A stretch of DNA of 64,000 nt from Planktothrix sp. PCC 11201 (GTDB taxonomy: Bacteria; Cyanobacteriota; Cyanobacteriia; Cyanobacteriales; Microcoleaceae), in the NCBI RefSeq assembly GCF_900009135.1, contig NZ_LT797711.1, positions 385,505-449,504 on the forward strand, given 5' to 3'. Shown here piece after piece: positions 16,774-34,460 of this stretch; the stretch's first letter is position 1, and each line of letters begins with the position of its first letter. Both the position numbers and the translations under genes were made by a program. The notes below the pieces were generated by a model. The model had not been told where the DNA came from. It did no database searches and was given only the letters and a program-made list of their open reading frames with translations.

Positions 16774-17808
16774 CTAACTACCCTTATTGATTCGCTGAAT
16801 TAAAGTATTAGCGATCGCTTCGGGAGGCAAAACTTCAACGGCTGCATTTAACTGAACTGCTGCTTTAGGCATTCCATAGACAATCGAACTCTTTTCATCC
16901 TGAGCGATCGTATGCCATCCAGTCTCACGCAAAACCCTGAGTCCATCAGCACCATCTTGTCCCATCCCCGTCAGTAATACAGCAATTTCTTTATGATGCC
17001 AGTGTTGGGCAAGGCTCTTAAAAAATACATCTACAGAGGGTCTATAAGGATAATTAACAGGTTCTTTTGTATAATATAATGTGAGATCAGGACGCAGACT
17101 CAGATGATCGTTAGTCCCGGCAATATGGACAATACCTTTTTCTAAGCGATCGCCAATATTAGCTAATCGCACCGTTAGAGGGGTTTGTTGATTCAGCCAA
17201 TCTACCAGACCCGCAGAAAACTGCTGATCAACGTGCTGGACAATCGCAATTGCCGCGCCAAAGTTAGCTGGAAGTCGGGAGAGAATCGTGGCTAAAGCTT
17301 TTGGCCCACCCGTTGAGGAGCCAATAGTCACAAGGCGAGGAAGTAGGGTAGAGGGTTTAGAGAATGAAGTCAGTTTTGAGGTTTGGAGTGCAGGCGTTGA
17401 GGGGGTTGATGATTTGCCTATCAGCTTACTGAGAGTAACAATTTTTGCCAGTAAGGGTTGGTGAGAACTTGAGCTTCCTTGAGTTCCTAAGATCGGCGTG
17501 TCCACCGCATCACGGGCACCATATCCCATCGCCTCAAACACTTTTCCGGCATTGTTTCCCACGCTTGCCGTCACGATCAAGATGGCGCAGGGACTCTGTT
17601 GCATAATCTGCCGAGTCGCTTCCACACCGTCCATAATCGGCATAAACAAATCCATCAAAATCAAGTCAGGAGTATCTTTTGCACAACGGTCAACGGCTTC
17701 TTGACCATCTCGTGCAATCCATACAACTTGGTAATTGGGAACAGTTAAAACCACTCGTTTGAGTGCTTCTACTGCCATAGCCGTATCATTAACAATCGCA
17801 ATTTTCAT
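16774..17808 (-). CDS. cheB: CheB protein-glutamate methylesterase/deamidase (WspF-like)
   Basis: Removes methyl groups from receptor glutamates and sets the adaptation level of the chemosensory array. The N-terminal receiver has its phosphoacceptor Asp53 in LILMDLFMP and the conserved DTP turn after it. A low-complexity linker (about 110-155) leads to the methylesterase domain, with catalytic Ser165 in IGSSTGGPK, His in AIVQHVD and Asp in [12 protein letters not shown]. The 344 residues are the usual length. It is the last gene of the Wsp-like operon, 60 bp after cheA, with an AATTACG heptamer tract in the gap. Confidence 0.95.
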
Positions 17809-17868: not shown

Positions 17869-20112
17869 CTATCTTCCAATCAGATCAATGATTGCATTGA
17901 TTAATGTATCATCGTGAAAGCTGCTTTTGGTCAGATAATAATTTGCCCCAGCTTCCATGCCTTGAATGCGGTCATCCTCCCGATCCCGATAGGACACAAT
18001 AATTACAGGAATAACGTGAAACTTAGGATGTTGTTTAATTTGCTTCACTAATTCAATTCCGTTCATCCGAGGCATATCAATATCGCTAACAATCAAATCA
18101 TAAGAATTGCTGCGAATTGCTGTCCAAGCATCCATACCATTCACAGCAACATCAACATCATAACCTTGATTTTGTAACAATTTCCGAGTCATTTCTCGCA
18201 CCGTAATCGAATCATCTACCACTAAAATTCGTTTATGGTCGTCGCCCTTTTTAGCTTTAGCTTTGACTTTATTAACATCAACAGGTCTTAATTGACCACT
18301 GTTGAGCATATTGTCAATTGATCGGACTAAATCAGAAACATCTAAAATCAAAACCGGGGAGCCATCATCCATCAAAGCAGAAGCACTAATATCCCGAACC
18401 TTACCCAAACGGGGGTCAAGGGGACGCACCACCAAATCTCGCTCGCCGAGAAACTCATCTACAAAAAGACCATAAGCGTTAGATTGGTCACTAATTACAA
18501 CGACGCAAAGGGCATCAGAATCAGGGAGTGTTTCGGGCAAATCTAAAATATCGTGGGCAGCAATTAACCCAATATTTTGACCATCCTTCGTAAAATATTG
18601 GCGACCTTCAACAACATAAATCTCAGACTTGTCGAGTTTAACAATTCGATCCACCCGTGCCAAGGGAAAGGCATAAGGTTCATCAGAAATAGTAACAATC
18701 AGCGTCCTCACCACCGAGAGTGTCAGGGGAAGCTGAAAGTGAAAACTGGTTCCATTTCCCAATTGAGATACAGCACGGATAGTGCCGCCCACCTCTTGCA
18801 CCATGCTCTTAGCAATATCTAATCCCACCCCTCGCCCGGAAATTTCCGTCACTTGGTCAGTAGTCGAAAATCCAGAGAGAAACAGAAATTCAATGATTTC
18901 AGCTTCCGTCAGTTGCGCCGCCGTTTCCGATGAAGCTAAATTGCGATCGACAATATGTTGACGAATAAAATTAGGATCAATGCCTTTACCATCATCAGAA
19001 ACACTGATCGCCAGCATTCCACCGCGATGAAACGCTTCTAGGCGAATTGTCCCCTCAACTGGCTTTCCTGATGCCTCACGAGCTTCTGGGGGTTCAATCC
19101 CATGATCAACAGCATTGCGGATCATGTGCGTCAGGGGAGCTTCTAGTTTTTTGAGAATATCTCGATCAACCAGGGTAGACTGACCGACAATCTGGAACTT
19201 CACCTGTTTCTCTAATCGTCGGGAGAGGTCACGAACCATGCGCGGAAGTCCCTGTACCCCATCCACAAAGGGACGCATATGGGAGGCAATCACTTCTCGG
19301 TAAAGGCGATCGCTCAAATTAGTGGTGCGACGGGCATAGAGTTCCAGTTCACCCAAACGATCCGTGAGAATTTCCCGGCATTCTTGGGCTTTCTGTCGAG
19401 CCGTATCCACAACTTGTTGGCTTTCAGGACTAATCGCCGTATTCGCTAAGGCAGTATGGAGGGTTTCCAGAAGTCGGGAAAGCTCTAATTGGCGGTATCT
19501 GAGAACCGTGAAGGAATCGGCAAAGGGTTGTAACCAATTGGCCTCAACCAAAGATTCACCCGCGAGTCCCATAATTCGATTCAAATTCTCGGCGCTCACC
19601 CGCACAACCCGATCATTTGGGATGGTGATTGCTTCTAAAGCCCCATTTTCTTGACGAGGAGTTGGAGTAATCTCCGAACTCTGCTCAACGCTGACTAAGG
19701 ATGATCGAGCGTTAAAATCTGGAGGTAGCAGGGCTCTAATTGCAGCACAGCAAGCCTCAAACTCTCCGATATTTTCCGTTAGCCAAGAGAGCATATCGGT
19801 TTCGGGGACTTGACTGACAGCCTGAAATAAGTCAACCCCTTGGAGTAAGACATCAATTTGTTCTGGGCCCAAGATAATAATCTTGTTCTGTGCGGCTACA
19901 AAACAATCTTCCATACAGTGAGCCAAGTTAATCACCCCATCCAGAGAAATAATCCGAGCCGCACCTTTAATGGAATGGGCCACTCGCATTAAGGCTTGCA
20001 AGATTTCCTCCGATTGGGAATTGCTTTCTAAGATCAGGAGTCCCTGAGTCAAGATCGCAACCTGCGTCTGAGCTTCTTGGCGAAATAGCTCGATCATCGA
20101 ATCATCACTCAT
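17869..20112 (-). CDS. cheA: CheA-type hybrid histidine kinase with C-terminal receiver (WspE-like)
   Basis: Kinase of the Wsp-like array, 747 residues. The N-terminal Hpt domain has its phosphorylatable His46 in RVAHSIKGAAR. The dimerisation and HATPase domain includes the N-box HMIRNAVDHGIEPP near residue 332 and the G-boxes DDGKGID and GRGVGLDIAKS. A CheW-like docking domain covers about 470-605. The receiver (about 625-747) carries the phosphoacceptor Asp in DLIVSDIDMPRMNG. A fused receiver is typical of WspE. With no WspR-like gene nearby, this receiver may be the local phosphate sink. It is 2 bp from the upstream four-cysteine cheW, so the two are translationally close. Confidence 0.95.
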   Translation of the reverse strand: MSDDSMIELFRQEAQTQVAILTQGLLILESNSQSEEILQALMRVAHSIKGAARIISLDGVINLAHCMEDCFVAAQNKIIILGPEQIDVLLQGVDLFQAVSQVPETDMLSWLTENIGEFEACCAAIRALLPPDFNARSSLVSVEQSSEITPTPRQENGALEAITIPNDRVVRVSAENLNRIMGLAGESLVEANWLQPFADSFTVLRYRQLELSRLLETLHTALANTAISPESQQVVDTARQKAQECREILTDRLGELELYARRTTNLSDRLYREVIASHMRPFVDGVQGLPRMVRDLSRRLEKQVKFQIVGQSTLVDRDILKKLEAPLTHMIRNAVDHGIEPPEAREASGKPVEGTIRLEAFHRGGMLAISVSDDGKGIDPNFIRQHIVDRNLASSETAAQLTEAEIIEFLFLSGFSTTDQVTEISGRGVGLDIAKSMVQEVGGTIRAVSQLGNGTSFHFQLPLTLSVVRTLIVTISDEPYAFPLARVDRIVKLDKSEIYVVEGRQYFTKDGQNIGLIAAHDILDLPETLPDSDALCVVVISDQSNAYGLFVDEFLGERDLVVRPLDPRLGKVRDISASALMDDGSPVLILDVSDLVRSIDNMLNSGQLRPVDVNKVKAKAKKGDDHKRILVVDDSITVREMTRKLLQNQGYDVDVAVNGMDAWTAIRSNSYDLIVSDIDMPRMNGIELVKQIKQHPKFHVIPVIIVSYRDREDDRIQGMEAGANYYLTKSSFHDDTLINAIIDLIGR

Positions 20113-20114
20113 GA

Positions 20115-20855
20115 TTAAAAAACCTTATGACTTAGGGTGTAGAACAAGAGTTCGGAGTCCAAAAAGTTGATCTTCTTGCCTTGCCAGGTCACGACCCCTT
20201 TGGTGTAAGCTTCCGATGCCTTGGAAATGACAACGGGAGCGTCTTTAAACTCATTGATATGGAAGCGATAGGTTCCATGAACTTCATCCACCGGAAAAAC
20301 CCACTTATTCTCATTTTTCCCCGCTACAATCATCCGTTGAGGATTAATCGGATTCGAGAAATCTACGGATTCGGTGACGGGTTCTAAGCCCAGCAAGTCT
20401 CTGATCGAAATACAGAGCAGGGTTTCGCCGCGAATATTGATCAATCCCAAAAACACCGAGTTTCTGCGGTGAGGGACGGTATGAATGGTGTAGAGAGGAG
20501 TGACTTCTTGGAGGATATTAACGGGTAATGCTAATCGTTCGTTACCCAGACGAAAAATGATTACCGAAAGGGTGTCTGTCGCCCGAACCAACGTACCTTC
20601 CCCCACTTCGGTTTGCTGGGTGGAAGATTCTGATAAGATATCCGTCCATTCTTGGAGATATTCGGGTGGAGCCTCGCGCTCTAATAAGCTGCGTCCCGCC
20701 GCCGAATACACCTTGCAATTTCGGCAGTGGATCACGGTCTTGAGTTCGTCACAGGAGCGATCGCCCATCACCCCAATTTTATTCCAACAATCATTGAGAG
20801 TTGGAGGGTCAGAAGTGGCGGGTATGATAGATACCGTATCAATATAACTTTCCAT
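20115..20855 (-). CDS. cheW: CheW adaptor with N-terminal four-cysteine domain (WspD-like)
   Basis: Scaffold that links receptor to kinase. The C-terminal CheW domain (about 100-240) shows VIIFRLGNERLALPVNILQEV and LINIRGETLLCISIRDLLGL. The N-terminal part has a conserved cysteine pattern, CWNKIGV, GDRSCDEL and HCRNCKVYSAAG (Cys23, 35, 44, 47), which could bind a metal. This extension is also seen in WspD-type CheW proteins, so it supports the Wsp assignment. It is 246 residues, against about 150-170 for a plain CheW. It lies 2 bp before cheA and 17 bp after the MCP gene. Confidence 0.9.
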   Translation of the reverse strand: MESYIDTVSIIPATSDPPTLNDCWNKIGVMGDRSCDELKTVIHCRNCKVYSAAGRSLLEREAPPEYLQEWTDILSESSTQQTEVGEGTLVRATDTLSVIIFRLGNERLALPVNILQEVTPLYTIHTVPHRRNSVFLGLINIRGETLLCISIRDLLGLEPVTESVDFSNPINPQRMIVAGKNENKWVFPVDEVHGTYRFHINEFKDAPVVISKASEAYTKGVVTWQGKKINFLDSELLFYTLSHKVF

Positions 20856-20872
20856 GATTTAATTCCTTATTT

Positions 20873-22582
20873 TTATGCTATTACTTTAAATCGTGAAATC
20901 TCTGTTTTTAAGCTATGACTGGCTTCATCAAGCTGTTCTAAGGCATGACTGGTTTCTCGTAACGAGTCGGCCGTCTGTTGAGAGGCTTGACTCAGATGTT
21001 CCATAGCCTCGCTAATTTGCTGCGCTCCTTGAGATTGTTCATCAACGCTCTGACTCACCTGCTCAAAGCGGGGGGTTAATCCCTGTACCTGTTGAATTAC
21101 TTCGGCTACTTGGTCGCTAATGCGGTCTACGTCTTCGACGCTGTTAACGACGGATTTTGTAAACTTATCCATCTCAGCCACACCAATAGACACGGCTAAT
21201 TGCATCTCCTTAATCATCTGCTCAATTTCTAAAGTGGCAACGGCGGTACGATCAGCTAATCGCCGGATCTCCCTAGCTACAACCGCAAAACCTGCCCCAT
21301 ATTCTCCGGCTCTCTCCGCTTCCAATGCGGCGTTCAGGGACAGTAAGTTAGTTTGATCGGCTACAACTGTAATCGTTGTCACCACCTGGCTGATATTGTT
21401 AGCCCGTTGGTGCATAACTTCGAGCTTAGAAGAAATTACCTTAGTCCCTTCTAACAACTGGCGCATGACAGAATCAATGTGATGCAGATTATCTTTACTG
21501 TTACCTGCGGCTATGGTTGTCTGTTCAGCCATGGCGGCTACCTGTTCCATGGTTTTCACCAATTGCTTTGAGGTCGTGGCAATTTGATGGGCTGTTGCTG
21601 AGACTTCATTGGTTGAAGCCACCTGTTCTGCCACGGTTGCTTCTAGGTTTTTGCCAGAAGCCGTAATTAGGTCGGTAGAACTGGTGATTTGATTTCCTGA
21701 GCGTTGAATGCGATTAACCAGGGCATTCAAGTCTTTATTCATGGTATAAAAAACATTCTGTAATTGCCCGACTTCATCTTGTTGCTCCGCTAGGGAAATT
21801 TCACTGGTTAAGTCTCCCGATGAAATCCGGTGAGCAATATCAACGACCCCAGCAATCTTTGCTCCAAGGGGTTTAGCGATGGTATTACTAAAGAAAATTC
21901 CAAATAAAATAGCCGTTCCTGGCCCAATGATAATGGCGACAAAAGCCCAAAATCCGACTTGAGAAACATCTTGTTCTGAGATTTTTTCGGTTTGGGATGC
22001 TAAGTCTTCATTAATTTTTAACAATGTCAATAGCAGATTGGTGACTGCTTGGGAGGGTTGACGGTTTGCCTCAACTTGGTTCTCCAGAGCTTTTAATCCA
22101 GAGTCTACGGGCTGAAATTCTCCGGTAAAATTATTCAATACATTGACAGTTCCCTGACTCTCGAACCGAAGATTAAGTCTCAAAAACTGATCATGGGCTT
22201 TCTTCCATACATCCCACTGATTCAAAAATTCTTGATAGACTTTCTTTTCTTCCGCGCTCGACTTCGGAGCCGCTTCGTATTGATGAAATCCCTCTTGAAT
22301 TTGCTTCCAAGCATTATCCATACGACCGATTTCATCTTGTCGCCCTTCTTTGGTCAAATTGATATCCAGCAAACCCCTTTCTGATGATTGAATTTGGGTT
22401 TTTCCTTCATTAATTTTCCACAGCCCAGAAATACTAGGAACATTATTCTTGGCTAAGGTATTAATGTGCTTACTCAAGCGAGAACTGCCACTCAGACCAA
22501 CCAAGGCGACTATCAGCACCAGAAGCCCCATAAAGATGAAAGCGACGATCAGGCGAGCCTGCATGGATTGATTTTTGAACAT
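20873..22582 (-). CDS. methyl-accepting chemotaxis protein (second MCP of the Wsp-like operon)
   Basis: Transmembrane chemoreceptor, 569 residues. The first membrane helix is near residues 10-32 ([19 protein letters not shown]). A helical four-helix-bundle-like periplasmic domain covers about 35-200 and the second membrane helix about 212-235. HAMP is at about 236-290. The signalling hairpin tip reads [20 protein letters not shown] followed by [16 protein letters not shown]. It lacks a C-terminal NWETF-type tether. Its signalling domain is very like that of the MCP at 23852, consistent with a duplication, while the sensor domains differ. It is 1 bp from the cheR stop, so translation is probably coupled. 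Confidence 0.95.
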
Positions 22583-22583
22583 A

Positions 22584-23843
22584 TTAGGTTTCCCCTTCTA
22601 AACGTCTGTTCTGAAACCGTGATCCCAGGGCTGAAATTCGCTGCTGAATGAGGTTTGCTCCAACTGGATCGCCTTGATTTTCTTTCAACAATGCTAGGTG
22701 AACTAAGGCGGGGTAGGAATTGGGATCGAGATAAATAGCCCGTTGAAAGCACTGTTCTGCTTGCCTATTTTGTTGGTTAGCCTGATAGAGTTCCCCTAAA
22801 AGCACATAAGCATCCGCACTGGTGGGATGATCACTCAAATAGCTCTGACAAAGGGTCATTGCCTCTACAAGTCGCCCTTCATCCGCCAGTTGTCTCACGG
22901 CTTGTAAATTAAGAGAGGGTGTCGGGTTTCGGGTTTCGGGTTTCGGTTCAAAGTCACCAATTGAGGACGCTCCCCCTGCTCCCCCTGCTCCCCCTGCTCC
23001 CCCTGCTCCCCCTGCTCCCCTTGCTCCCCTTGCTCCCCCTGCCTCCCCTGCTCCCTCTTGCTTGCGATAGGCAAAGGTGAAGGGCTGACGGATGGATTTA
23101 TAGGGTTCTGCGACAATTTTTCCCGTTTCAGACGCTCCCACAAACAGTAATCCTCCGGGTATCAGCAAGCGATCCAGGGCTGCTAATACCTGTTCGCAAA
23201 CTTCGGATTTCAAATAGATTAATAAGTTACGACAGAAGATAATGTCGTATTGCTTTTGAGTCAGAGCCAAAGCTCTCATCACATTCCCCTGCTGAAAATT
23301 AACCAACTTACGAATAGATTCGGAGAGTTCATAACCCTGCTCTGTTTGCTGAAAGTAGTGCGATCGCGGTTTCCAGTCCTCGCCCCGAAAGGAATTTTTA
23401 GTGTAGACTCCCTGCCTTGCTTTGGCCAGTGATCGATGGCTAATATCAATGGCATCGATCTGGAACTGTTTGGGATGCAGACCCGCTTCGAGTAAAGCGA
23501 TCGCTATGGAGTAAGGTTCTTCCCCTGTAGAGGATGGCACACTCAGCACTTGCAGAATATTCCGGTTGAGCGAGGGTCGCCATTCTGAGGTGATGTATGT
23601 TTTGAGGTAATCAAAGGGTTTACCATCTCGGAAAAACCAAGTCTCTGGAACAATCAGAATTTCGATTAGTTCTTCTAATTCGGTCGCGGAGGTTTGTAAC
23701 TTTGCCCAATAGCTTTCCAGATCCGGTAATTTACATCTGACTCGACGAGTCTCGGCAGATCTGGCAATCTGGTTAGGGCTGGCGATATCGGGATCTAAGC
23801 CAATGGTTTGGCTCAACAATTTGGCGATCTTCTGTAGTACCAT
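22584..23843 (-). CDS. cheR: CheR methyltransferase with C-terminal TPR domain (WspC-like)
   Basis: S-adenosylmethionine-dependent receptor glutamate methyltransferase, 419 residues. Visible motifs are [39 protein letters not shown] for SAM binding and [14 protein letters not shown]. Residues about 262-292 are a Gly-Gly-Ala linker encoded by a 9-bp minisatellite. TPR repeats follow ([20 protein letters not shown]). A CheR-TPR fusion in this gene order is a Wsp hallmark. It is flanked by MCP genes on both sides, with gaps of 8 bp and 1 bp. Confidence 0.93.
22920..22945. repeat. coding heptamer repeat (GGGTTTC)3
   Basis: Three copies of a 7-base unit inside cheR, encoding part of the linker. 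A period not divisible by three means that changing the copy number would shift the frame and lose the TPR domain. Confidence 0.6.
22970..23052. repeat. coding minisatellite, 9-bp unit (CTCCCCCTG), in cheR linker
   Basis: Eight to nine tandem copies of a 9-base unit with a few variants, read on the minus strand as Gly-Gly-Ala. Unit gain or loss keeps the frame and only changes the length of the linker between the methyltransferase and TPR domains. Confidence 0.8.
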
Positions 23844-23851
23844 ATCTAACC

Positions 23852-25450
23852 CTATGCGGTTTTAAACTTAGCAATTTCTTTTCGCAATCCATTTGCTGCC
23901 TCGTCAAGCCGATCTACGGCACTGTTTGTCTCTCGTAAAGAGTCTACGGTCTGCTGGGAGGCTTGACTAAGTTGTCCCATCGCTTCACTAATCTGTTGTG
24001 CTCCTTGGGATTGCTCCTCAATGCTCTGACTCACACGCTCAAAGCGGGGGGTTAAGCCTTGCACCTGTTCAATGACTTGAGTGACGCGATCGCTAATTTT
24101 GCTCACATCGGCAACGCTATCAACGACTGATTTACTGAATTTATCCATTTCCATCACACCCGTAGAAACAGCGGACTGCATTTCTTTAATCATCTGGGCA
24201 ATTTCTAAGGTAGCGACGGCGGTTTGATCAGCCAGTCGGCGAATTTCCCGTGCGACCACCGCAAACCCGGCTCCATATTCCCCGGCTTTTTCAGCTTCGA
24301 TCGCCGCATTCAACGAAAGCAGGTTCGTCTGGTCAGCCACTTTATTAATAGTCGTCACCACGCTATTAATATTGTTTGCCTTTTCATTCATCACTCCCAG
24401 TTTGGTAGTAATACTGTTAGTTGCGCCCGAAAGTTCGCGCATGACCGTTTCCATGCGGTTGAGGTCATTGTGACTGGCTCCGGCGGATGTGGCTGTGGAC
24501 TGTGCCATCTGTGTCACCTGCTCCATGACTCTGACCAATTCTTTAGAAGTGGCGGCAATCTGTTGGGAGGTAGCACTAACTTCATTCGTCGAGGCTAGTT
24601 GCTCGACAACGGTGGCTTCTAATTCTTTTCCGGCGGCGGCAATTTGAGTGGAAGAGGTACTGATCTGAACTCCTGACTTTTGCATCTGGAGAATCAGGGC
24701 ATTCAGCTTTTTGGACATATAGTGAAACGCGGTCATCAACTTGCCCACTTCGCTAGAATCGTTGCTTAACTCAATATTTTGTTGTAAATCTCCCTCAGCA
24801 ATCTGTTCTGCGGCTTTCACTACCTTGGGTAGATCTCGTCGGATCGGTAATGCAATCAAAAAGGCTGCCGCCAGGGTTGCCGCGATCGTGATCAGGGTTC
24901 CCAAAATGATCATCAAAGTCTGAAACTGCTTGGCTTTCTGGGCTTGGAGTAAATTATCCTGTAGTCTGGCTTCAAGAATAGTATGGGCCCGATCACTGGC
25001 TTCAGCGAGTTTGGCAACGCGAGGAATTAAAATTTGTTGTTTGGCTTCATTCAGCTTATCGGCATCAACGAGGGGATAAACACCTGCTGCAACGCTATCG
25101 TACTCATCCCCAATCTGGATCATGGCGTTTACAGCTTCTCGCGTCTGTGGATCGGTAATCTTTGCCAATTCCTCCTTGTTGAGAAGCATACTTTCTCTGG
25201 CTTTATCATAAGTTCCGCGATAGTAAGGATCTTTCGGATAAAGAGCATATCCTCGGATACTGGCAATAATCCTAGTGACATCATAAGCATAGGAATCTGT
25301 AGCGCTGATGTTATCACCGACTTCCTTTGAGTCGGACTGCAATTCGACTAAGTGTTCTGTGCCTGAAAATAGTATGGAGCCTAGCACAATTAAAAACAGA
25401 ATCGGAACGGAGAAGCCCAGGATTAGGCGGTTAGTGATATTGTTAAACAT
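23852..25450 (-). CDS. methyl-accepting chemotaxis protein (first MCP of the Wsp-like operon, WspA-like)
   Basis: Transmembrane chemoreceptor, 532 residues. Membrane helix 1 is at about 10-30 ([19 protein letters not shown]). A four-helix-bundle periplasmic sensor covers about 31-175 ([12 protein letters not shown]). Helix 2 is [19 protein letters not shown], followed by HAMP with [14 protein letters not shown]. The signalling tip is [20 protein letters not shown] and then [16 protein letters not shown]. There are many Gln/Glu methylation candidates in the flanking helices. It is 8 bp upstream of cheR and separated from the preceding cheW by 116 bp that is mostly heptamer repeat. Confidence 0.95.
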
Positions 25451-25458
25451 GGTATTAG

Positions 25459-25550
25459 GAATTGGGAATTGGGAATTGGGAATTGGGAATTACGAATTAC
25501 GAATTACGAATTACGAATTACGAATTACGAATTACGAATTACGAATTAAT
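25459..25550. repeat. heptamer repeats (AATTGGG)4 then (AATTACG)n
   Basis: Two heptamer types joined in tandem, covering nearly all of the gap between the WspB-like cheW and the first MCP. The high unit identity suggests copy-number change by slippage. Confidence 0.85.
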
Positions 25551-25566
25551 TAGGACTCCTATTTAA

Positions 25567-26025
25567 TTAAGTGTTTTCACCCATGAGCAGGTAAGCGTGT
25601 TGTTCATCGCTGAAAAGCTTCTCAAGCTGGAGACATTGAATAATTCGTTTTTCATCAATAATTGTGCCACTTAAGTAGGGGGCTTCATCAACCCGAATAC
25701 TGGAATCTTTAATGTCTGTAGTTGATATATTTAGAGTCTCCGTTACCCGCTCGGCCATGAGACCTAAATATTGTGAATCTCCTTTTTGATTAGGATATTT
25801 AACAATAATAATCCGGGTACTGAGGTGCGATCGCCCGGGAGTTCCTTGGATTAATTGGCACAGGTCAATTACGGGAAGAATTACTCCTCGGTAATTAAAT
25901 AAACCCGCGACATATTCGGGTACATGATGTACTTTCCTGAAACTAACTCGCGGAATCACCTCAACAATATAGGAACTACTAATCGCAAACAGGTCTTTTC
26001 CAGCGTAGAAAAGTAGAATTAGCAT
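25567..26025 (-). CDS. cheW: CheW adaptor (WspB-like)
   Basis: A plain CheW of 152 residues that docks kinase to receptor. Recognisable parts are LFYAGKDLFAISSSYIVEVI and VAGLFNYRGVILPVIDLCQL, the conserved strand and turn that bind CheA and MCP. It is 6 bp after the ion-channel homologue stop and 116 bp before the MCP. It is the second gene of the predicted transcript. Confidence 0.9.
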   Translation of the reverse strand: MLILLFYAGKDLFAISSSYIVEVIPRVSFRKVHHVPEYVAGLFNYRGVILPVIDLCQLIQGTPGRSHLSTRIIIVKYPNQKGDSQYLGLMAERVTETLNISTTDIKDSSIRVDEAPYLSGTIIDEKRIIQCLQLEKLFSDEQHAYLLMGENT

Positions 26026-26031
26026 TTTTAT

Positions 26032-27096
26032 TTAACCCACGATTGCTGCGTGAGCAATAACAACAATATTAAGAACAACAAATGAACCGGACAGGATCGG
26101 AACAGCAAAACGTCGCATTAAATCCCGTGACAATTGTTCCTGTTCTGATTCACTTAAAAATCGAGTATAAACTAGCAGACTGGCTGTGATGAAAATGTAA
26201 ATAATTGCCATGATATGAATGAAATCAATCAGGGTGACGGAATTGCTACTTCCTAACTCGGATGTTGCTGTTTGCATATTAACTAAAACGGCAAACAAAG
26301 TCCCGACAAAAATACCCATTCGATCCCCAAAATCTTCATCCAGCAGCAATGTGATAATTGACAGTGCTACCGCGGCATAAACGCCCAAAGAAAGTTTAAA
26401 GAAGCTAACTTTACTCTCGCGATTAATCGTAACTGAAACCACGATGCGGGAACGACGGTAATTAGGATCTTTTTGAATGGACGGATTACCAAAGCTGGTT
26501 TGATAAGGAAAATTAACTTGAGAAATCTTAAAATCTGTAATTTTCCAACCCGCCAAATTCATATCTTTCTGATAACTGGAGCCAGAATAATCTGGGGTAT
26601 GAACGAAACTAGACGCATCTAACTGGGTTTCCTCTAGTATAATTTGCAATATATGGCGATCAAATGGATAGTTATTTGTGTCCCAGTTGTAATAGAGAGT
26701 TGTACCAATTTCCTGTCCAGACCAGAAGACATTTTTACTAGATCCAAATAGATCGGACAGATTTTCATTCCGCGAAAACCTGTCGTAATTTTTGCTAACT
26801 TCCTTACTATCTAAAACCTTCAGGGTTTCTAAAGGTTTCATATTCTCAAAAGGACAGACACTCCAGATCCAGAAATTGGCAGCAAATGAGTTCTCTGCTG
26901 GGTTAAAATCTCGCAATGATGTCAAATAAACTCCAATTTGACAAGTTTTGGGAGGGGTTAAATCCTCCGCACTAACTGGCAAAATTTGATAGATCCAGCA
27001 ACTAAAACTAACGGTCAGCAAGCAACTAATTAGATATAATTTATTGATCACTGCTTTAACAGCAGAATGCTGAAGTTTAGAAATATTTTCCCTCAA
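26032..27096 (-). CDS. pentameric ligand-gated ion channel homologue (prokaryotic Cys-loop superfamily)
   Basis: A 354-residue membrane protein with the topology of bacterial pLGICs (GLIC/ELIC class). A signal peptide covers about 18-43. An extracellular beta-sandwich (about 50-230) includes CQIGVYLTSLRDFNPAENSF, the hallmark YPFDRHILQIILE (residues 143-155) and AGWKITDFKIS. Four hydrophobic segments follow: M1 FFKLSLGVYAAVALSIITLL (232-251), M2 from GDRMGIFVGTLFAVLVN (257-273), M3 LIDFIHIMAIIYIFITAS (289-306), and M4 near 330-350. There is no cysteine loop, as in other bacterial members. It is the first gene of a Wsp-like chemosensory operon, 6 bp before cheW. Ligand and ion selectivity are unknown. 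Confidence 0.82.
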   Translation of the reverse strand: MRENISKLQHSAVKAVINKLYLISCLLTVSFSCWIYQILPVSAEDLTPPKTCQIGVYLTSLRDFNPAENSFAANFWIWSVCPFENMKPLETLKVLDSKEVSKNYDRFSRNENLSDLFGSSKNVFWSGQEIGTTLYYNWDTNNYPFDRHILQIILEETQLDASSFVHTPDYSGSSYQKDMNLAGWKITDFKISQVNFPYQTSFGNPSIQKDPNYRRSRIVVSVTINRESKVSFFKLSLGVYAAVALSIITLLLDEDFGDRMGIFVGTLFAVLVNMQTATSELGSSNSVTLIDFIHIMAIIYIFITASLLVYTRFLSESEQEQLSRDLMRRFAVPILSGSFVVLNIVVIAHAAIVG

Positions 27097-27168
27097 CCAT
27101 CAACTCCTTTACTAATTAGGATTAGAGCCACTGTAAGCCTGCCTCATTTGACTACAAACCGCTACAAT

Positions 27169-27576
27169 TTAAGTTTTTTGCAGACTTGCTCTTGCTAATA
27201 AAACACCGATTTGGACACAAATCATACCGACTACGGCACTTCCAAAAAAATAAAGGAACATCGTCTGGTTATCTCCCTTGGTTAAGAAACCATTAGTTTC
27301 TAAACCGTAGGTTGAAAAGGTTGTATAGGCTCCGCAGAAACCCGTTGTCGTCATCAGTCGGAATTCAGGGGAGATCAACCGAATATTCTCGATCGCTAGG
27401 GTCAAAATATAAGCAATCAATAAACAGCCGGTGACGTTAATAAAGAATGTGCCATAAAAGCCAAAATCTTTGCCAAAAATTGCTTTGGCGGTTTCGGTGA
27501 AATAGAAACGACTCAATGCACCAAAAATTGCCCCGATTGCTATAGCCAGGGAATAACGTCCTTTCAAAAATTCCAT
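27169..27576 (-). CDS. crcB: CrcB/Fluc fluoride channel, copy 2
   Basis: A small membrane protein (135 residues, four helices) that exports fluoride as a dual-topology dimer. Signatures visible: GALSRFYFTE, GTFFINVTGCLLIAYIL with the conserved Asn, and TTGFCGAYTTFSTYGLET with the TTFS motif that lines the pore. It follows the other crcB by 62 bp. Paired copies in one organism can be homologous or heterodimeric partners. It lies just upstream of the pLGIC gene on the same strand, with a 72-bp gap. Confidence 0.92.
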   Translation of the reverse strand: MEFLKGRYSLAIAIGAIFGALSRFYFTETAKAIFGKDFGFYGTFFINVTGCLLIAYILTLAIENIRLISPEFRLMTTTGFCGAYTTFSTYGLETNGFLTKGDNQTMFLYFFGSAVVGMICVQIGVLLARASLQKT

Positions 27577-27638
27577 TGTGTTTTGCCTAAAATATTGAGG
27601 ATTTGCGGTTTTTTGTCAGCTAAATTTCAACCTGTTTA

Positions 27639-28034
27639 TTAGGTTGGGACTACGACAATATTGGCGATCGCAACGCCTATCATCACCGCTATTAAACCTA
27701 AAATTGCACTCCCAGCCCAATAAAAAGCTGTGAGAAAGGTTTGTTTATTCCGCCATAAACTTAGGGTGTCAAAGCCATAGGTTGAAAATGTGGTGTAAGA
27801 CCCTAAAAACCCAGTTCTAATCAGTAAATCTAATTCTTTGGGATAGCCTGTAATTCCTTTGGAAATGGTGAAGAAGAAACCCATCGCCAAACATCCAGTT
27901 AAATTAATCATAAATGTTCCGTAGGGAAATTTGGCTCCAAATTTGGCTTTTGTCCATTCGGTAATTTGATACCGAGATAGTGCCCCAGGAACTGCCCCAG
28001 CAGCGATCGCTAAAACATTAGTTATGTCTGACAT
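27639..28034 (-). CDS. crcB: CrcB/Fluc fluoride channel, copy 1
   Basis: A membrane protein of 131 residues with the same architecture as its neighbour: GALSRYQITEW, YGTFMINLTGCLAMGFF and RTGFLGSYTTFSTYGFDT. The two copies differ substantially in sequence, so the duplication is old or they came separately. No classical fluoride riboswitch was recognised upstream. It is probably the first gene of the crcB pair. Confidence 0.93.
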   Translation of the reverse strand: MSDITNVLAIAAGAVPGALSRYQITEWTKAKFGAKFPYGTFMINLTGCLAMGFFFTISKGITGYPKELDLLIRTGFLGSYTTFSTYGFDTLSLWRNKQTFLTAFYWAGSAILGLIAVMIGVAIANIVVVPT

Positions 28035-28191
28035 TCGTTAATATTCACCCTATACTAAGTAAGTTGCCGTTTTTTGGAGTATTTTGGGTTCATAATAGAA
28101 ATGTAGCTGAAATTACAAAATGTTGTTTTTAGAAAACCAAAAATTCTCTATCTTGATCAACATCAGTTTCATTGATTTCCTTATTCCCAAA

Positions 28192-28226
28192 AAAAGTTGT
28201 TTGTTGTTTGAATTCAAACAACTTTT
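28192..28226. terminator. hairpin, possible terminator
   Basis: Perfect 12-bp stem AAAAGTTGTTTG/CAAACAACTTTT around an 11-base loop. The inner 20 bases GTTGTTTGAATTCAAACAAC are themselves a palindrome. It is upstream of crcB on the minus strand and could also be a regulatory site. Confidence 0.4.
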
Positions 28227-28278
28227 ACCCATCCGTCGCCATTATGCCATCAAAATTCAGAAATTTGTATTTTAGCAA

Positions 28279-28349
28279 CATGAATATTTTTAATTATAGA
28301 TATGCAGCAAATCGATATTGAGCAAATAGACCAAAATTTGTTAATCTAA
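28279..28349 (+). pseudogene. relic of the LysR gene 5' end (duplicate of 28923-28985)
   Basis: The sequence from TGAATATTTTTAATTATAG through ATGCAGCAAAT and on to AAATTTGTTAA matches the leader and first codons of the LysR gene at 28947, with scattered substitutions. The copied ATG at 28302 opens 15 codons and hits TAA at 28347-28349. It is best read as a fragment left by a local duplication. Confidence 0.7.
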
Positions 28350-28395
28350 ATTTTTAGTGTTTGGATACAAAATCAGGTTTCTGTGAATTGAGAAA

Positions 28396-28428
28396 CCTCC
28401 GTCAAAGCAACTTTAAGATTGACGGAGG
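28396..28428 (-). terminator. perfect hairpin terminator of the 129-aa gene
   Basis: Arms CCTCCGTCAA and TTGACGGAGG pair exactly around a 13-base loop. On the minus strand a short T-rich stretch follows. It is about 47 bp after the stop codon of the minus-strand gene. Confidence 0.55.
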
Positions 28429-28474
28429 TAAGGATCAATTTAAGCTTTTGACTTAAAAATTCTCTTTATTTCTC

Positions 28475-28864
28475 TTAGTAATTAGTCTGGCTCTGATATT
28501 TTCCGTTTTGGTTTTTACCATCAGTTGTTTGGATTACAAGGATTTCATTACCACCGCGAATCACTACACCAAACTGTTTGTATGGTTGAGATGGTCTTCC
28601 ATCTTCATAAGACTGGGTAGCATCCAGAGAGAATGTGCCATCATTGTTAACTTTGTAAGTCCCGGTCACGCTATAACCTACTTCCTGCCCGTCAATGCTA
28701 ACAAAACCCTTACCTGTATGAGCTCCATTACCATCAAAATTAGCTGTTCTCAAAGCAGAATAGGATACAGTAGAAACTGTACCATCAGGATTGGTAGTTT
28801 TGCGAGTACCTTGATCTTGAAATCCGAATCCACCTTTGAGGCTGCCATTGTTAAATTCAGTCAT
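28475..28864 (-). CDS. hypothetical protein, beta-rich (129 aa)
   Basis: A small protein that reads as antiparallel strands: GGFGFQDQGTRKTTNPDGT, GYSVTGTYKVNNDGTFSLDA and FGVVIRGGNEILVIQTTDG. The DGT/DGTF turns and overall pattern resemble lipocalin or allene-oxide-cyclase-like barrels, but that is only an impression. There is no signal peptide. It is transcribed divergently from the LysR gene at 28947 with an 82-bp shared control region, so it is the likely target of that regulator. Confidence 0.6.
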   Translation of the reverse strand: MTEFNNGSLKGGFGFQDQGTRKTTNPDGTVSTVSYSALRTANFDGNGAHTGKGFVSIDGQEVGYSVTGTYKVNNDGTFSLDATQSYEDGRPSQPYKQFGVVIRGGNEILVIQTTDGKNQNGKYQSQTNY

Positions 28865-28946
28865 AACAAAATTCCTATTTGTAAATACAAGATTAATTAT
28901 TAGTTAACTTGATTCTTTTGTAAAATGAATATTTTTAATTATAGGT

Positions 28947-29882
28947 ATGCAGCAAATAGATATTAAGCAAATAGACCTAAATTTGTTAACAATTTTAAAA
29001 GTTCTACTGGAGGAAGTTAATGTTACTAAAGCCAGCCAAAAATTGAATTTAAGTCAATCCGCAACTAGCCATGCTTTAAAAAGACTCCGAAAAATGTTTA
29101 ACGATCCCTTGCTGGAGCGCTCATCTGCGGGAATGCGTGCTACGCCTAGGGCTTTAGCTTTGCAAGCATCCCTAGAAAGCATCCTGCTTGATATTGAAAA
29201 GTTAGTTACAGAACCAGTTTTTATCCCGGAATTAGCTCGGGGGACGATTCGGATCGCCGCTTCAGATTACGCCACCACTGTGATCCTGCCTTCGGTTTTG
29301 AGAGAACTTTCTTTGAAGAATCCTTATCTTGATATCGAATGTTATGACTGGCATCCTGAAACTTTGGATCGGCTCAAAAGTGGGGAGATTGATCTCGCTT
29401 TAGGAATAGTAGACCTAGATAAAACTCATGAATTTGGATATGAAAAGCTATTTACGGAGGATTTTGTCTCAATCGTCAGGGTAGAACATCCTATTATTAA
29501 AAAAGGGATTACTCTGGAATCCTATATTGCTTCGCCCCACGCTTTAATTACGATTACAGGCTTACCCATTAACTCAATTAAGAAATCATCTAAAAGTCAT
29601 GTTGATCGCATTTTAGAAGAATTGGGAGTCGAACGTCGAGTCAGGTTAAAGTTACCCCATTTCCTATCTGCGGCTCTAATTGTGGGTCAAACCGATATGA
29701 TTTTGACTTTACCCCGTCGGATTGCTTTGATATTTGCCAGTATAGCTAAGATCACCATATTTGATCCCCCAATTGATTTGGGTCAGTATAACTATATGCA
29801 AATTTGGTCTAAGAAGTCTGATCATGTTCCCTTTCAAATCTGGCTACGCGATTTGATCAGAATCCAAACTCAAGACATCTAA
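28947..29882 (+). CDS. LysR-family transcriptional regulator (NodD/NahR type)
   Basis: A 311-residue regulator. The N-terminal domain reads LDLNLLTILKVLLEE-like, then SQSATSHALKRLRKMFNDPL, the variant helix-turn-helix of NodD/NahR/LinR-like LysR proteins. The effector domain starts near residue 90 (GTIRIAASDYATTVILP). It is divergent from the 129-aa gene. A relic of its own promoter and first codons lies 645 bp upstream. The start at 28947 is fixed by conserved spacing to the HTH. Confidence 0.9.
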   Translation: MQQIDIKQIDLNLLTILKVLLEEVNVTKASQKLNLSQSATSHALKRLRKMFNDPLLERSSAGMRATPRALALQASLESILLDIEKLVTEPVFIPELARGTIRIAASDYATTVILPSVLRELSLKNPYLDIECYDWHPETLDRLKSGEIDLALGIVDLDKTHEFGYEKLFTEDFVSIVRVEHPIIKKGITLESYIASPHALITITGLPINSIKKSSKSHVDRILEELGVERRVRLKLPHFLSAALIVGQTDMILTLPRRIALIFASIAKITIFDPPIDLGQYNYMQIWSKKSDHVPFQIWLRDLIRIQTQDI

Positions 29883-29996
29883 GAAACAATCATTCTGTCT
29901 CTTTTTTTCTATCCCCTATCTCCTATTCCCTTGCCATCTGTAGCACTAATTTCAGGATTTCATATTAGACCTCTTGCAAAAAAAATCTATGCTATA

Positions 29997-30224
29997 ATGC
30001 CAAACTTTCACTATAAACCGGATAAGCCTCTGTCAGTATTGATCGGTAATCTTAAAACTGTTAGTAGTAGGCTGATTCGCAAAGAATTTCCTTTGTTGGC
30101 ATCAAAGTATTTTTACAATAAACATTATTTTTGGACAGGTTCTTATTTTGTCGCTAGTTGTGGTGGTATTACAGTTGAACAGTTGAAAAAATATGTTGAG
30201 CAACAATCAACTCCAGAAAATTAA
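29997..30224 (+). pseudogene. tnpA: IS200/IS605-family TnpA (Y1 transposase) 3' remnant
   Basis: About 75 codons match the C-terminal half of a TnpA/REP-type Y1 transposase: LSVLIGNLKTVSSRLIRKEF, WTGSYFVASCGGITVEQLKK, and the catalytic Tyr in KKYVEQQ. The N-terminal half with the HUH metal-binding motif is absent (NFHYKP stands where the conserved block would be). The element is therefore dead. A terminal-type hairpin follows at 30270-30297. Confidence 0.8.
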
Positions 30225-30269
30225 ATCGAATTCGCTATCGCTCATGTTTTCTTTGGTCGTGATTCATCT

Positions 30270-30297
30270 CACCGCCAAGCTAACGCTGTGGCGGGTG
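30270..30297. mobile_element. right-end hairpin of the decayed IS200/IS605 element
   Basis: CACCGCCA pairs with TGGCGGGTG (one bulged G) around an 11-base loop, about 45 bp after the transposase remnant, in the position where IS200/IS605 elements carry their subterminal right-end structure. Confidence 0.5.
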
Positions 30298-30362
30298 TCC
30301 TCTCACGACGTTAAGATAGAGGCTGAGATGATCTGCCCCTATTCACTATTAACAAGTAACTA

Positions 30363-33300
30363 TTATCCCGCGGCAACCATCGTATTTCCCACCACTTCAC
30401 CCTGTAACATTCGTCCGGCTGCTTCTAATAATTGCTCCTCCAAATAGGGTTTGGTAAAGTAACCTTTCGCCCCCAAATTAAAAGCCATTTGACGGTGACG
30501 ATCCGCACCGCGAGACGTCAACATGGCAATGGGTAAATTTGTTAACGCCGGATCTTTTTGCATCCGAGATAACAACTCCAACCCATCCATCCGGGGCATT
30601 TCAATATCGCAGAAGACAATATCGCAGGGTAAACCCGATTTCAGTTTTTCCCAGGCTTCCTTACCATCCCGGGCTTCTTCCACACGATAACCAGATTTTT
30701 CAAACGTAATCGAAAGGAGCGATCGCACCGTAATCGAATCATCCACAATTAACACCGTCGGCTCCGACTTCTGAACCACAGGTTCCGCCGTGGCACTACC
30801 CATCTGCCAAATCTTGCCCGAAGCATCCCGACGAATCCGACCCATGGCCAAATCAATCAGTTCTAGGACATCGGCGATCGCCACAATTTGACCATCCCCT
30901 AACACCGTCGCCCCAGCAATCCCAATCGGTTTTGGTACGGGCCCTTCTAAGGGTTTGATCACAATTTCCTGTTCAATCAACACCTGATCCACCTGCACGG
31001 CCAAATAACTATTAGAAGACCGTAGGACAATCACCGAAATCATGTCTTCTTCTACATTTGCACCATAGACATTCCCCCGACCCAAATGGCGATGATAGGT
31101 CAACAGTTCCCGCAAATGACGTAGGGGCAAAATTGTACCCCGCCATTCCAACACCTTACTGCCATCGGACTCCGTGCGGATTTGTTCCCGAGGAACGTCA
31201 ATCATATCTTCCACCCCATCCATTGGGAAAGCAATCCGAACCCGATCGCTCACGCAACACAAGGCCCGGGAAATACTCATATTCAGGGGCAAACGAATCG
31301 TAAACGTCGTCCCGTGTCCCAAGGTAGAATCCGTCGTGATCGCGCCCCGAATATCGGTTAAGCTGGTACGCACCACATCCATTCCCACCCCTCGACCCGC
31401 GAATTCATCCGCCACATCCTTCGTACTAAAGTTGGGCAAGAATAACAGGTCATAAATTTCTGGGTTACTCATACTTTCGGCGTCTTCGGCGGTAATGATT
31501 CCTTTCTGAATCGCCTTATTTTTCACCCGGTTGACATCAATACCACCCCCATCATCGGAAACCGCAATAATCGTTTGGTTTCCTTGGTGAAATACCCGAA
31601 TCGAAATTCGGCCCACCGCCGATTTCCCCGCCGCCGTCCGAACATCCGCCGGTTCAATCCCGTGAGTAATAGCATTATTCACTAGATGAATCAAGGGGTC
31701 GTGGAGTTTACCCAGTAACATTTTGTCAATTAAGGTATCTCGACCCTCCACAAATAACTCCGCCTGTTTCCCACACTTGATCGAAATATCCCGCACGGGA
31801 CGTTTCAGGGCGTCTGCCTCACTGCCAAAGGGTTCCATGCGGGCGCGATTTAACCCTTCTTGTAACGCTGTTGTAATCCGTCGCAACTCCCGAGTTACTT
31901 GGTCGGCTTCTTCAACTAAAAATCCAATATCTGCACTGGACTCCCGCACCCGCACAATTAACTCAATAATCTCTTGGGACAGGGTATGGAAGGGCGTAAA
32001 CCGATCCAGTTCCGTTGAGTCTAAATCATTATTGGAATCATCATCATGAATCGAGGAACTGTCCGAAAACCAGAAGGGTTTGCGACGGTGGGACAGTAGG
32101 GAAATTTCCAAGAGCGATCGCTCATAAAAATCCTGCATCCGTTGACCCACATCTCCCAATAAAGAAACCTGATGCAGCAAATTATCCAAAAACTGTCGCA
32201 TCCGTTCTTGGTCTTGTTCCAAACTGTTGCGGTTAACGACCAGTTCCCCCATCAAGTTACTCAGACCATCCAGTTGTTTCACCGGAACCTTGACAATTTG
32301 TTCGGCAATGGGTTTAGCAAATGTCCCCCTAGGAGGAGTGGTGGTTCGAGATCGAGGAGGAGCATCTTCAATCAATCGAATTAATGCGATAAATTCCGAA
32401 TCCTCCTCCGAGAGTTGTGATTCTGTGTTAACGGCTTTGCGGGCGGTCTGGGAGTTAATATTTTTAGGAGGATCGGGTGTCCAGGGTTCAGCCACGGGGG
32501 TATGGAGCAGTTGATCCAAATCCAAGAAATCCTCATCTTCCACCGTCGTTTCAGCAGCCGTTGGCTGACTATCTGCCCCTCCTAAATTGAGTAGGGCATC
32601 CAAACTGGCAAAATCATCCTCCGGCAGTTCTAGGGTGGGCTGCACCGTCGCTACAGGTTCTAATTTTGGGGACATCCGGGGGAGTTGAGTGGGACTTGGC
32701 TGATCCAGGGTTACATCCGCGGCTTCTTCGAGTTCTCCTTGTAAAAGTTCTTCAAACCAATCTTCTTGAACATTCATCTGACCCGATGTGCTGCTGTCGG
32801 TTTCCCGACTGGCTTGGATTTTGGGGTCAAACTGGTCAAATAGATCATCTAAATTTTCCGCATCTTCCAATAACTCCGTAATTTGAGCCGGGGAAAGATC
32901 GACAGAACGGGCAGATGGCATCCCCTCTTGGGGATTAATCGCTAACAACTCATCAAATAAATCCCCAAAACCATCTACCGGGTCATGCTGTCGGGTTTCT
33001 ACCGACATCGGCTTGGTTGCTGTTCCCGTTTCTGGGATGGCTGACTCCCCATCACTGAGGTGATCAAAGAAACTCAATAGATCATCATCGGCTCCAGAAG
33101 TCACTAAACCGGGTTTTTGTTTGGTTTTACCCTTCTGGGTTTGGGGTGGATAGCCAGAGGTTGACCGTTGATTGAACTCAGGTTTTTCGTCTCCCAACAA
33201 ATCAAAAAAGTCCCCCGATATTGATTCTGTTTCGGTTTCCAAGGACGGGGAAGTTGACGCGGGGGCTTCTTCCGTCACCTCCTGCTCCCATTGATCCAAA

Positions 33301-34460
33301 CCTTCAAATAAATCTCTGAGACTGTTATATTCTTCGGGGGTAATTTCTGGGCCGTTTTGTAAACGGGCTGGGGTATTACTGGGGTTGGTCACTGAATCTG
33401 ACCAGTTCACATCGGAGAAAGAATTGTTGGGTGCTGCTACTTTAGGGTTTTTTTTCTTACTATTTCCCTGTTTCAACTGACCCGATTTTGTGGCTGTCTC
33501 CGTCGTAGTTTTAGGCGGTTTAGATTGACTTGGAGATGTTTCAGGAGATGATGTAGATGGAGGCGACGATTTGGTTTTTTTATCTGTTTTTGCCGGGCTA
33601 ACCGTCTTGGGCAAAAGTTTTGTAATCCCTTCTGTTACAACAATTTCCCCCTCTCGATTCACTAAAACCAGTTCTTGGGCTTCTTTAATAGATTTAATCA
33701 CAATCGGAGCTAGACTCCGATAAGTATTATCAGGATTGGCAATCACTTTTTCTAGGATCTCAATAAACTTAACCCAATTGGGCAAATCAAAGAGTTCCCC
33801 CGCCCGGGCTAAACTCCGACAGGTTTCGATTAACCCTTGACGAGTTTTTGGGGTTTCTGACTGTTTGAACTGTTGCAACATTTCTCGCAGACGTTCGGGA
33901 ACATCACTGCGAAATACCAAGTCCTTCGCACTACTAGGAGGTTCTTTAGATATAACAGGAGTAGGAATGGGGCGATTAGATACAGAGGACGTAGGCCCGG
34001 TTTCTACTTCAGATGATCGCTTTGTCCCCTGTTGTTGAACCACTTTAATATGGTAATTTAAGGCTTCAAAAACAGGCTCAACATCCTGCAAAATAGCACT
34101 AGCTGCTTCTTCCGTTAAGCCATAGGGCCCTGATAACTGATCGATTAAGGCCTGTAATGTATCAAAAACCTGTAAAAATAATGATTCTAATTGTTGATCG
34201 ATAAATTGAGTCGGAAGACGGTTTTCTTTCAGGATTTTAAAACTATCTTCTAACCTGTGAGCCGTTTGTTGAATACTATTAAGTCCCAACATCGCCGCCC
34301 CACCCTTGACCGAATGAGCCGCTCGGAAAACTTCATTGAGCAGTTCTGGATCTTCAATCGTCGTTTGTAGATTGAGTAATCCCTGTTCAATCGTATTGAG
34401 GTGGTCTTTCGCCTCCTCAATAAAATAGCCCATAATCCGTTGTTGCTGTTCAAGTTGCAT
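30363..34460 (-). CDS. pilL: CheA-type hybrid histidine kinase of the Hmp/Pil motility locus
   Basis: A 1365-residue kinase that controls type IV pilus-driven motility in cyanobacteria (HmpE/PilL). The Hpt domain is at residues 1-110 with His49 in FRAAHSVKGGAAM. A long acidic, low-complexity region covers about 270-740. The dimerisation/HATPase domain has HLVNNAITHGIEP near 923, DDGGGIDV and GRGVGMDVV. A CheW domain covers about 1080-1215. The receiver (about 1240-1355) has its acceptor Asp in DIVFCDIEMPRMDG. It is the last gene of the locus, 208 bp after pilJ; the gap contains the 168-bp repeat. Confidence 0.93.
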   Translation of the reverse strand: MQLEQQQRIMGYFIEEAKDHLNTIEQGLLNLQTTIEDPELLNEVFRAAHSVKGGAAMLGLNSIQQTAHRLEDSFKILKENRLPTQFIDQQLESLFLQVFDTLQALIDQLSGPYGLTEEAASAILQDVEPVFEALNYHIKVVQQQGTKRSSEVETGPTSSVSNRPIPTPVISKEPPSSAKDLVFRSDVPERLREMLQQFKQSETPKTRQGLIETCRSLARAGELFDLPNWVKFIEILEKVIANPDNTYRSLAPIVIKSIKEAQELVLVNREGEIVVTEGITKLLPKTVSPAKTDKKTKSSPPSTSSPETSPSQSKPPKTTTETATKSGQLKQGNSKKKNPKVAAPNNSFSDVNWSDSVTNPSNTPARLQNGPEITPEEYNSLRDLFEGLDQWEQEVTEEAPASTSPSLETETESISGDFFDLLGDEKPEFNQRSTSGYPPQTQKGKTKQKPGLVTSGADDDLLSFFDHLSDGESAIPETGTATKPMSVETRQHDPVDGFGDLFDELLAINPQEGMPSARSVDLSPAQITELLEDAENLDDLFDQFDPKIQASRETDSSTSGQMNVQEDWFEELLQGELEEAADVTLDQPSPTQLPRMSPKLEPVATVQPTLELPEDDFASLDALLNLGGADSQPTAAETTVEDEDFLDLDQLLHTPVAEPWTPDPPKNINSQTARKAVNTESQLSEEDSEFIALIRLIEDAPPRSRTTTPPRGTFAKPIAEQIVKVPVKQLDGLSNLMGELVVNRNSLEQDQERMRQFLDNLLHQVSLLGDVGQRMQDFYERSLLEISLLSHRRKPFWFSDSSSIHDDDSNNDLDSTELDRFTPFHTLSQEIIELIVRVRESSADIGFLVEEADQVTRELRRITTALQEGLNRARMEPFGSEADALKRPVRDISIKCGKQAELFVEGRDTLIDKMLLGKLHDPLIHLVNNAITHGIEPADVRTAAGKSAVGRISIRVFHQGNQTIIAVSDDGGGIDVNRVKNKAIQKGIITAEDAESMSNPEIYDLLFLPNFSTKDVADEFAGRGVGMDVVRTSLTDIRGAITTDSTLGHGTTFTIRLPLNMSISRALCCVSDRVRIAFPMDGVEDMIDVPREQIRTESDGSKVLEWRGTILPLRHLRELLTYHRHLGRGNVYGANVEEDMISVIVLRSSNSYLAVQVDQVLIEQEIVIKPLEGPVPKPIGIAGATVLGDGQIVAIADVLELIDLAMGRIRRDASGKIWQMGSATAEPVVQKSEPTVLIVDDSITVRSLLSITFEKSGYRVEEARDGKEAWEKLKSGLPCDIVFCDIEMPRMDGLELLSRMQKDPALTNLPIAMLTSRGADRHRQMAFNLGAKGYFTKPYLEEQLLEAAGRMLQGEVVGNTMVAAG

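Follow-up and report, generated by a model that had tools for sequence, protein, structure and literature searches.

The locus examined here raises the question of why a gene related to the pentameric ligand-gated ion channels (pLGICs) stands directly before a set of chemosensory genes, and whether channel and pathway belong together. The window, a 64,000-nucleotide stretch of DNA from Planktothrix sp. PCC 11201, holds on its minus strand the run pLGIC-cheW1-mcpA-cheR(TPR)-mcpB-cheW2-cheA(REC)-cheB. The genes concerned are the following.

27639..28034, minus strand: crcB1, fluoride-channel gene, neighbour outside the unit (domain match)
27169..27576, minus strand: crcB2, fluoride-channel gene, neighbour outside the unit (domain match)
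26032..27096, minus strand: pLGIC gene, 354 aa, TTG start (ORF list, profile matches, conserved columns)
25567..26025, minus strand: cheW1 (PF01584, 1.4e-27)
23852..25450, minus strand: mcpA, chemoreceptor with HAMP and MCP signalling domains (domain match)
22584..23843, minus strand: cheR with C-terminal TPR (domain match)
20873..22582, minus strand: mcpB, chemoreceptor with 4HB_MCP sensor domain (domain match)
20115..20855, minus strand: cheW2 with N-terminal extension (domain match)
17869..20112, minus strand: cheA with C-terminal receiver domain (domain match)
16774..17808, minus strand: cheB, receiver plus methylesterase, last gene of the conserved unit (PF01339, 8.4e-60; PF00072, 2.7e-16)

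The N-terminal extension of CheW2 is presumably WspD-like. Open reading frames and domain matches confirm the initial annotation in placing the channel gene 6 bp (stop to start) upstream of a cheW gene and on the strand of the whole MCP-CheR-CheW-CheA-CheB series, the che genes after cheW1 being spaced by 1–116 bp. That the channel gene comes first holds for the sensory unit, but not for the same-strand run, which begins upstream with crcB1 and crcB2 behind a divergent lysR-type gene; in one related genome (G386, below) the channels come last. The label ‘Wsp-like’ likewise fits in part: a CheR with TPR, two CheW, a CheA with receiver domain, CheB and MCPs are united in one cluster, as in the ACF or Wsp-type clusters described in the accessible portion of PMC3447774, but no WspR-type effector follows cheB, and no WspR (REC-GGDEF) gene was found among the adjacent genes examined. 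Multidomain response regulators are given in that portion as the distinctive feature of ACF pathways; the window operon differs from those clusters in having none after cheB, in carrying a pLGIC, and in having mcpA between cheW1 and cheR. Promoter and terminator scans gave counts at or below those of shuffles and so have no bearing on co-transcription.

Some further features of the region may be recorded. A tandem heptamer repeat of the AATTACG type occupies 25459-25548, between cheW1 and mcpA, and a similar stretch lies ~4 kb from crcB remnants in Planktothrix G048 (L297). After the operon (15645-16169) there is a gene for a UPF0114 membrane protein; UPF0114-like ORFs also stand just upstream of pLGICs on four Azospirillum plasmids read (L229-L232), which may be coincidence. 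A second chemosensory cluster, with PatA-like, CheY, CheW, large MCP and large CheA genes, lies close by on the same strand (30363-40772) and was not seen beside the pLGIC-che operon in Planktothrix G046.

The predicted channel protein has a hydrophobic N-terminus followed by an extracellular β domain and four membrane helices, and by inspection a ribosome-binding-type AAGGAG lies directly 5′ of its TTG start. Taken as a single sequence its identity is ambiguous, since Pfam returned no match, ligand domain included, both NCBIfam matches were below cut-off (TIGR00860 LIC, 4.6e-7; LGIC_1, 4.2e-5) and the PDB match was weak (GLIC chimera, 4.7e-4). The claim that it is a pLGIC homologue is borne out by a subfamily profile (A2) built from 26 relatives. 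Among the best 60 of its 174 matches, this profile found Cys-loop channel entries of ELIC type at 4.2e-15 (an entry that we take to be ELIC itself), an entry named as the Erwinia channel at 5.2e-14 and proton-gated (GLIC) entries at 7e-14 to 4e-12, with alignments to ELIC and GLIC spanning the second half of the ligand domain and the four helices. Profile A2 also aligned with a second cyanobacterial set, A3, over 277 columns (hhalign probability 99.9%), and A3 matched the GLIC chimera at 4.6e-27. At a threshold of 0.01, 3 of the 26 relatives match Pfam PF02931. Given this profile homology across ligand domain and helices, we read the missing Pfam match as divergence, and the family as a divergent branch of the superfamily. 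An AlphaFold2 monomer model from nine close sequences (pLDDT 43.6) was too poor for use, and agrees in strand and helix order only. The closest named match is in P. paucivesiculata PCC 9631 (97%), and dN/dS values of 0.10-0.23 in six comparisons indicate purifying selection. No relatives were found among viral contigs and phage records.

Four positions in the protein bear on its class and function.

26941..26943, minus strand: codon of C52 (conserved-column analysis)
26854..26856, minus strand: codon of C81, the partner of C52 (conserved-column analysis)
26653..26670, minus strand: codons of the pro-loop motif YPFDRH, residues 143-148; P144, F145 and D146 invariant in 26/26 of the subfamily
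26272..26328, minus strand: codons of the M2 pore helix, residues 257-275 (alignment to ELIC)

The pro-loop Y/FPxD with its invariant proline, called the best superfamily marker in the accessible text of PMC4795631, is present as the YPFD that the initial annotation had pointed out, and the basic residue expected just before M1 is there too (R226, 26/26). Invariant throughout the 26 sequences are W125, P144, F145, D146, W184, Y198, R226, D291, H294 and Y300; of these, D146 and R226 correspond to the acidic and the basic residue that the available part of PMC549065 connects with gating. In the profile alignment, with residues counted by hand, D258 pairs with E-1′ of ELIC, the selectivity filter, and F268 with L9′, the gate (ELIC positions from the accessible part of PMC12637682); E155, present in 24/26 of the subfamily, falls opposite E131, one of the two glutamates that this part links with the agonist in a simulation set-up. 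The protein therefore resembles ELIC and GLIC in its ligand domain and four helices, its pro-loop, its pre-M1 arginine and an alignable M2. It is unlike them in giving no Pfam match alone, in its location in a chemosensory operon, in the nearly invariant G-x-L-F core of the subfamily M2, with F at 9′, and in the pair C52/C81. Both cysteines are present in 23/26 members and both are absent from the other 3/26, making the pair a possible disulfide distinct from the Cys-loop.

Searches with the pLGIC found matches in 17/61 genomes of the family, 26/195 of the order and 32/386 of the phylum; at 1e-15, matches occurred in 26/388 genomes of the order. All four samples overlap. Neighbourhoods read in these loci place che genes beside a pLGIC in 12 cyanobacterial genomes from five families: Planktothrix G000, G046, G047, G050 and G052, G015, G018 and G029 of a sister genus, and G065, G106, G156 and G386. 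The operon of G050 is known from a 4.8-kb contig ending in mcpA. Three genomes (G018, G029, G065) carry a tandem pair of pLGICs in front of the operon. Some copies are damaged. G015, a genome 74% complete, has its pLGIC split into two pieces, and neither cheR nor mcpB was detected there. Both channel copies of G018 end short of M4. In G046, pLGIC and cheA are open, but cheR is short, cheB is split in two and a DDE transposase separates cheA from cheB (L054, L224); the chemosensory pathway of this strain may be decaying.

The CheW2 protein, searched in the same three samples, served as a control, its matches being compared by hand with those of the pLGIC. Every genome with a CheW2 of ≥77% identity had the pLGIC in the operon (10/10; G050, whose contig ends earlier, is outside this count), compared with 1/66 genomes with a more distant CheW2 (best E ≤ 1e-40, lower identity), the exception being G156 (CheW2 61%). 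The remaining 65/66 had no pLGIC match near the distant cheW2: the channel was missing, sat on a different contig or, in G028, was 138 kb off; contig ends may hide some. None was seen in the 19 control regions read, one of which (G219) is an isolated cheW2-like gene. Gene order differs as well: in control regions with labelled cheR and MCP genes, cheR precedes the MCPs; in pLGIC-bearing operons that contain both kinds of gene, mcpA stands between cheW1 and cheR. In a tree of CheW2, CheA, CheB and CheR, which left out G015 and G050, the ten pLGIC-bearing operons fell into a single clade (100/99) that excluded the 19 control rows. The pLGIC is thus a regular part of one operon type.

The link belongs to that operon type rather than to the channel family. 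Among 91 pLGIC ORFs in the cyanobacterial loci examined, a count that excludes the window gene and includes some flanks shorter than 5 kb, 16 ORFs (15 genes, one in two pieces) lay within 5 kb of a CheW or MCP gene, all 16 belonging to the pLGIC-che operons of the 12 genomes; the other 75 did not. The flank reading leaves out two loci in G500 and one each in G395, G510, G539 and G382. For 7 of 23 flagged ORFs the supposed chemosensory link had come from weak CheA (six) or CheR (one) matches, and was dropped after Pfam identified the neighbours as hybrid kinases, OmpR-type regulators or a TPR protein. The case that the initial annotation had named against itself, homologues that never sit beside chemosensory genes, is not what was found. 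A plasmid search returned 10 records with 11 pLGIC places. At 7 of the 8 places read no che genes lay beside the pLGIC; the exception was a plasmid of Azospirillum sp. B510 (L226 7776-13824), on which ~20 bp separate a pLGIC (profile E 2e-64) from the gene of a CheW-domain protein; next come an MCP, an MscS-type channel carrying a cyclic-nucleotide-binding domain, and a TPR protein. Two channel types thus surround one CheW-MCP pair on this plasmid.

G386, a member of another order, shows a second association. Its operon, sister to that of Planktothrix in the Che tree (100/100), lacks a front pLGIC but carries two such genes after cheB, with gaps of 3 and 74 bp. In a pLGIC tree that left out the two G015 pieces and in which the G156 channel grouped with the front channels at a support of 74/66, each of these two genes groups as sister with one member of the unlinked pLGIC pair of G178 (100/100, 72% identity). 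Placement of the G386 channels with the 12 front rows was rejected by an AU test set after the tree had been seen (p 6.3e-9 for both, 3.1e-5 and 4e-5 singly). From tree and test together, it appears most likely that a pLGIC joined this operon type twice. Upstream in G386, 18 bp before cheW1, is a crcB1::crcB2 relic (L198 7194-7412), a fusion of the beginning of crcB1 with the end of crcB2 whose first part contains a stop. The relic marks a deletion where Planktothrix has crcB-crcB-pLGIC.

Within Planktothrix, channel and pathway are also absent together. Orthologues of both cheW2 and the pLGIC are missing from G045, G048, G049, G051 and G053; other pLGIC paralogues are present in G045, G051 and G053. 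In G051, lysR-crcB1-crcB2 is followed directly by the gene beyond the operon in the window, positions 15594-27147 of the window being missing as one block. In G045 the crcB pair and the intergenic DNA are still present, followed by the first ~31 bp of the pLGIC and then by other DNA, which indicates loss of the channel along with the operon in that genome. G053 retains a stretch similar to the ribosome-binding region upstream of the pLGIC start (a weak match). The retention of crcB without pLGIC or che genes in G045, G051 and G053 puts crcB outside the unit, as a separable neighbour. Recurrence, joint absence and the second association together make chance linkage of pLGIC and che genes, which had been left open at first, unlikely.

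Our preferred reading, which we consider somewhat probable, is that the pLGIC would be a dedicated ionotropic co-receptor of one variant of the cyanobacterial ACF (Wsp-like) pathway, with its ion flux read by the array. Beyond the recurrence in 12 genomes, the CheW2 contrast, the Che clade, the second association in G386 and the joint absence, the Azospirillum run and the invariance of D146 and R226 also argue for it. On the other side we count the short cytosolic part of the protein, the damaged operons of G046, G015 and G018, and the unlinked majority of pLGICs in cyanobacteria and on plasmids.

The 3′ ends of the operons bear on a different direction of signalling. A receiver-effector gene apparently follows cheB in 14/19 control regions; five of these were checked with Pfam, and the rest were assigned by weak CheY, PatA or CheA matches together with length. 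Effectors checked in this way (L201, L206, L207, L211, L212) include a nucleotide cyclase, a SpoIIE phosphatase and a histidine kinase. In contrast, neither a receiver-effector nor any multidomain response regulator was seen among the next genes after cheB in the pLGIC-bearing operons read at this end (0/10; G018, G046, G047 and G052 were judged by phmmer labels or lengths, not all by Pfam). In G106 a receiver-kinase-like ORF lies ~8 kb beyond the operon. In G386 the two pLGICs occupy the very slot after cheB that holds an effector in controls. These observations are what might be expected if the channel were an output or feedback element replacing the missing effector, the pathway altering channel activity or abundance and ion flux being the response. 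We nevertheless regard this as unlikely, because the pLGIC offers a phosphorylated regulator no cytosolic domain to bind, and its gating residues are still those of a ligand-gated receptor.

Distinctly unlikely, in our estimate, is that a channel with a role of its own, such as ion or pH homeostasis, simply travels with a mobile che cassette. The Che tree is discordant with the families, as the position of G386 illustrates, so that the operon probably does move; pLGICs also occur alone, and in G046 damaged che genes lie beside an open pLGIC. Passive carriage fits poorly with G386, however, where a close relative of the operon has channels of another lineage at its opposite end, and with the tandem copies present in three genomes. 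A fluoride-related crcB-crcB-pLGIC island with incidental che genes is very improbable and largely refuted: the crcB pair does lie 72 bp upstream of the pLGIC on the same strand, but crcB persists without pLGIC or che genes in the three Planktothrix genomes named above, no crcB was detected in front of pLGIC-che in G018, G029, G065, G106 and G156, and no fluoride riboswitch was found in 15500-30500.

Under the co-receptor reading, the channel gene would be co-transcribed with the pathway and its product would assemble as a pentamer. A small periplasmic ligand would bind at the subunit interface and open the pentamer, and the resulting ion flux would shift local ion concentration or membrane potential, a change to be read by the co-encoded MCP-CheW-CheA array. 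CheR and CheB would supply adaptation, and output would pass through the CheA receiver domain or an unlinked regulator. Input by ion flux is the simplest reading of a protein whose ligand domain is periplasmic and of which hardly anything lies in the cytosol; and since the channel comes and goes with the sensing genes as a regular part of the operon, it probably feeds an ion signal into the pathway. In Planktothrix the ions are perhaps cations, given D258 at the filter position of ELIC E-1′. We rejected cation selectivity as a property shared by all these channels, since linked ones variously carry D, A, G or P at -1′; cation flow would be at most clade-specific.

The tandem pairs offer a separate observation on selectivity. 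At the inner end of M2, the first copy reads GDR and the second GAR in both G018 and G065 (L036, L107), while the two copies group together within each of these genomes in the tree; in G029 both copies read GAR. The GDR/GAR pairs could possibly represent two ion selectivities kept through gene conversion.

A role for such channels in chemotaxis has been raised before. Tasneem et al. 2004 (PMC549065) proposed, in the part available, that bacterial ART-LGICs with fused PBP, Cache or MCP-N domains are chemotaxis receptors; the case made there comes from fused or neighbouring binding domains, and that part mentions no CheA or CheW operon. The window pLGIC differs in being unfused and in having a whole pathway alongside. 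The possibility of a chemotaxis or quorum-sensing role for prokaryotic pLGICs is repeated in excerpts of a review (PMC9221113) and of a research article (PMC8449418). According to the accessible text of Jaiteh et al. 2016 (PMC4795631), which contains neither the word operon nor chemota*, a biological role is known for no unicellular pLGIC. Among the matches listed in our literature search no title or abstract described a pLGIC in a che operon, which is weak evidence of absence since subscription journals are mostly uncovered.

A broader statement of the co-receptor reading, to be held tentatively and as falling a little short of probable, is that a channel of the neurotransmitter-receptor type may act as a chemosensory array's own dedicated receptor, ion flux carrying the message from receptor to kinase; that cyanobacteria would have recruited such a channel on two or more occasions and Azospirillum on one; and that tandem pairs with D or A at -1′ may differ in ion selectivity. 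What the sequences establish is that a relative of the ion channels of nerve synapses is a regular part of one type of cyanobacterial chemosensory operon, and this makes the role of such channels testable. Since the channel and a complete chemosensory pathway occur or are missing jointly, the operon points to a particular pathway, to organisms and to mutants with which the role of a pLGIC can be tested. If the co-receptor reading is true, ion-channel and chemoreceptor signalling would be joined in one bacterial system.
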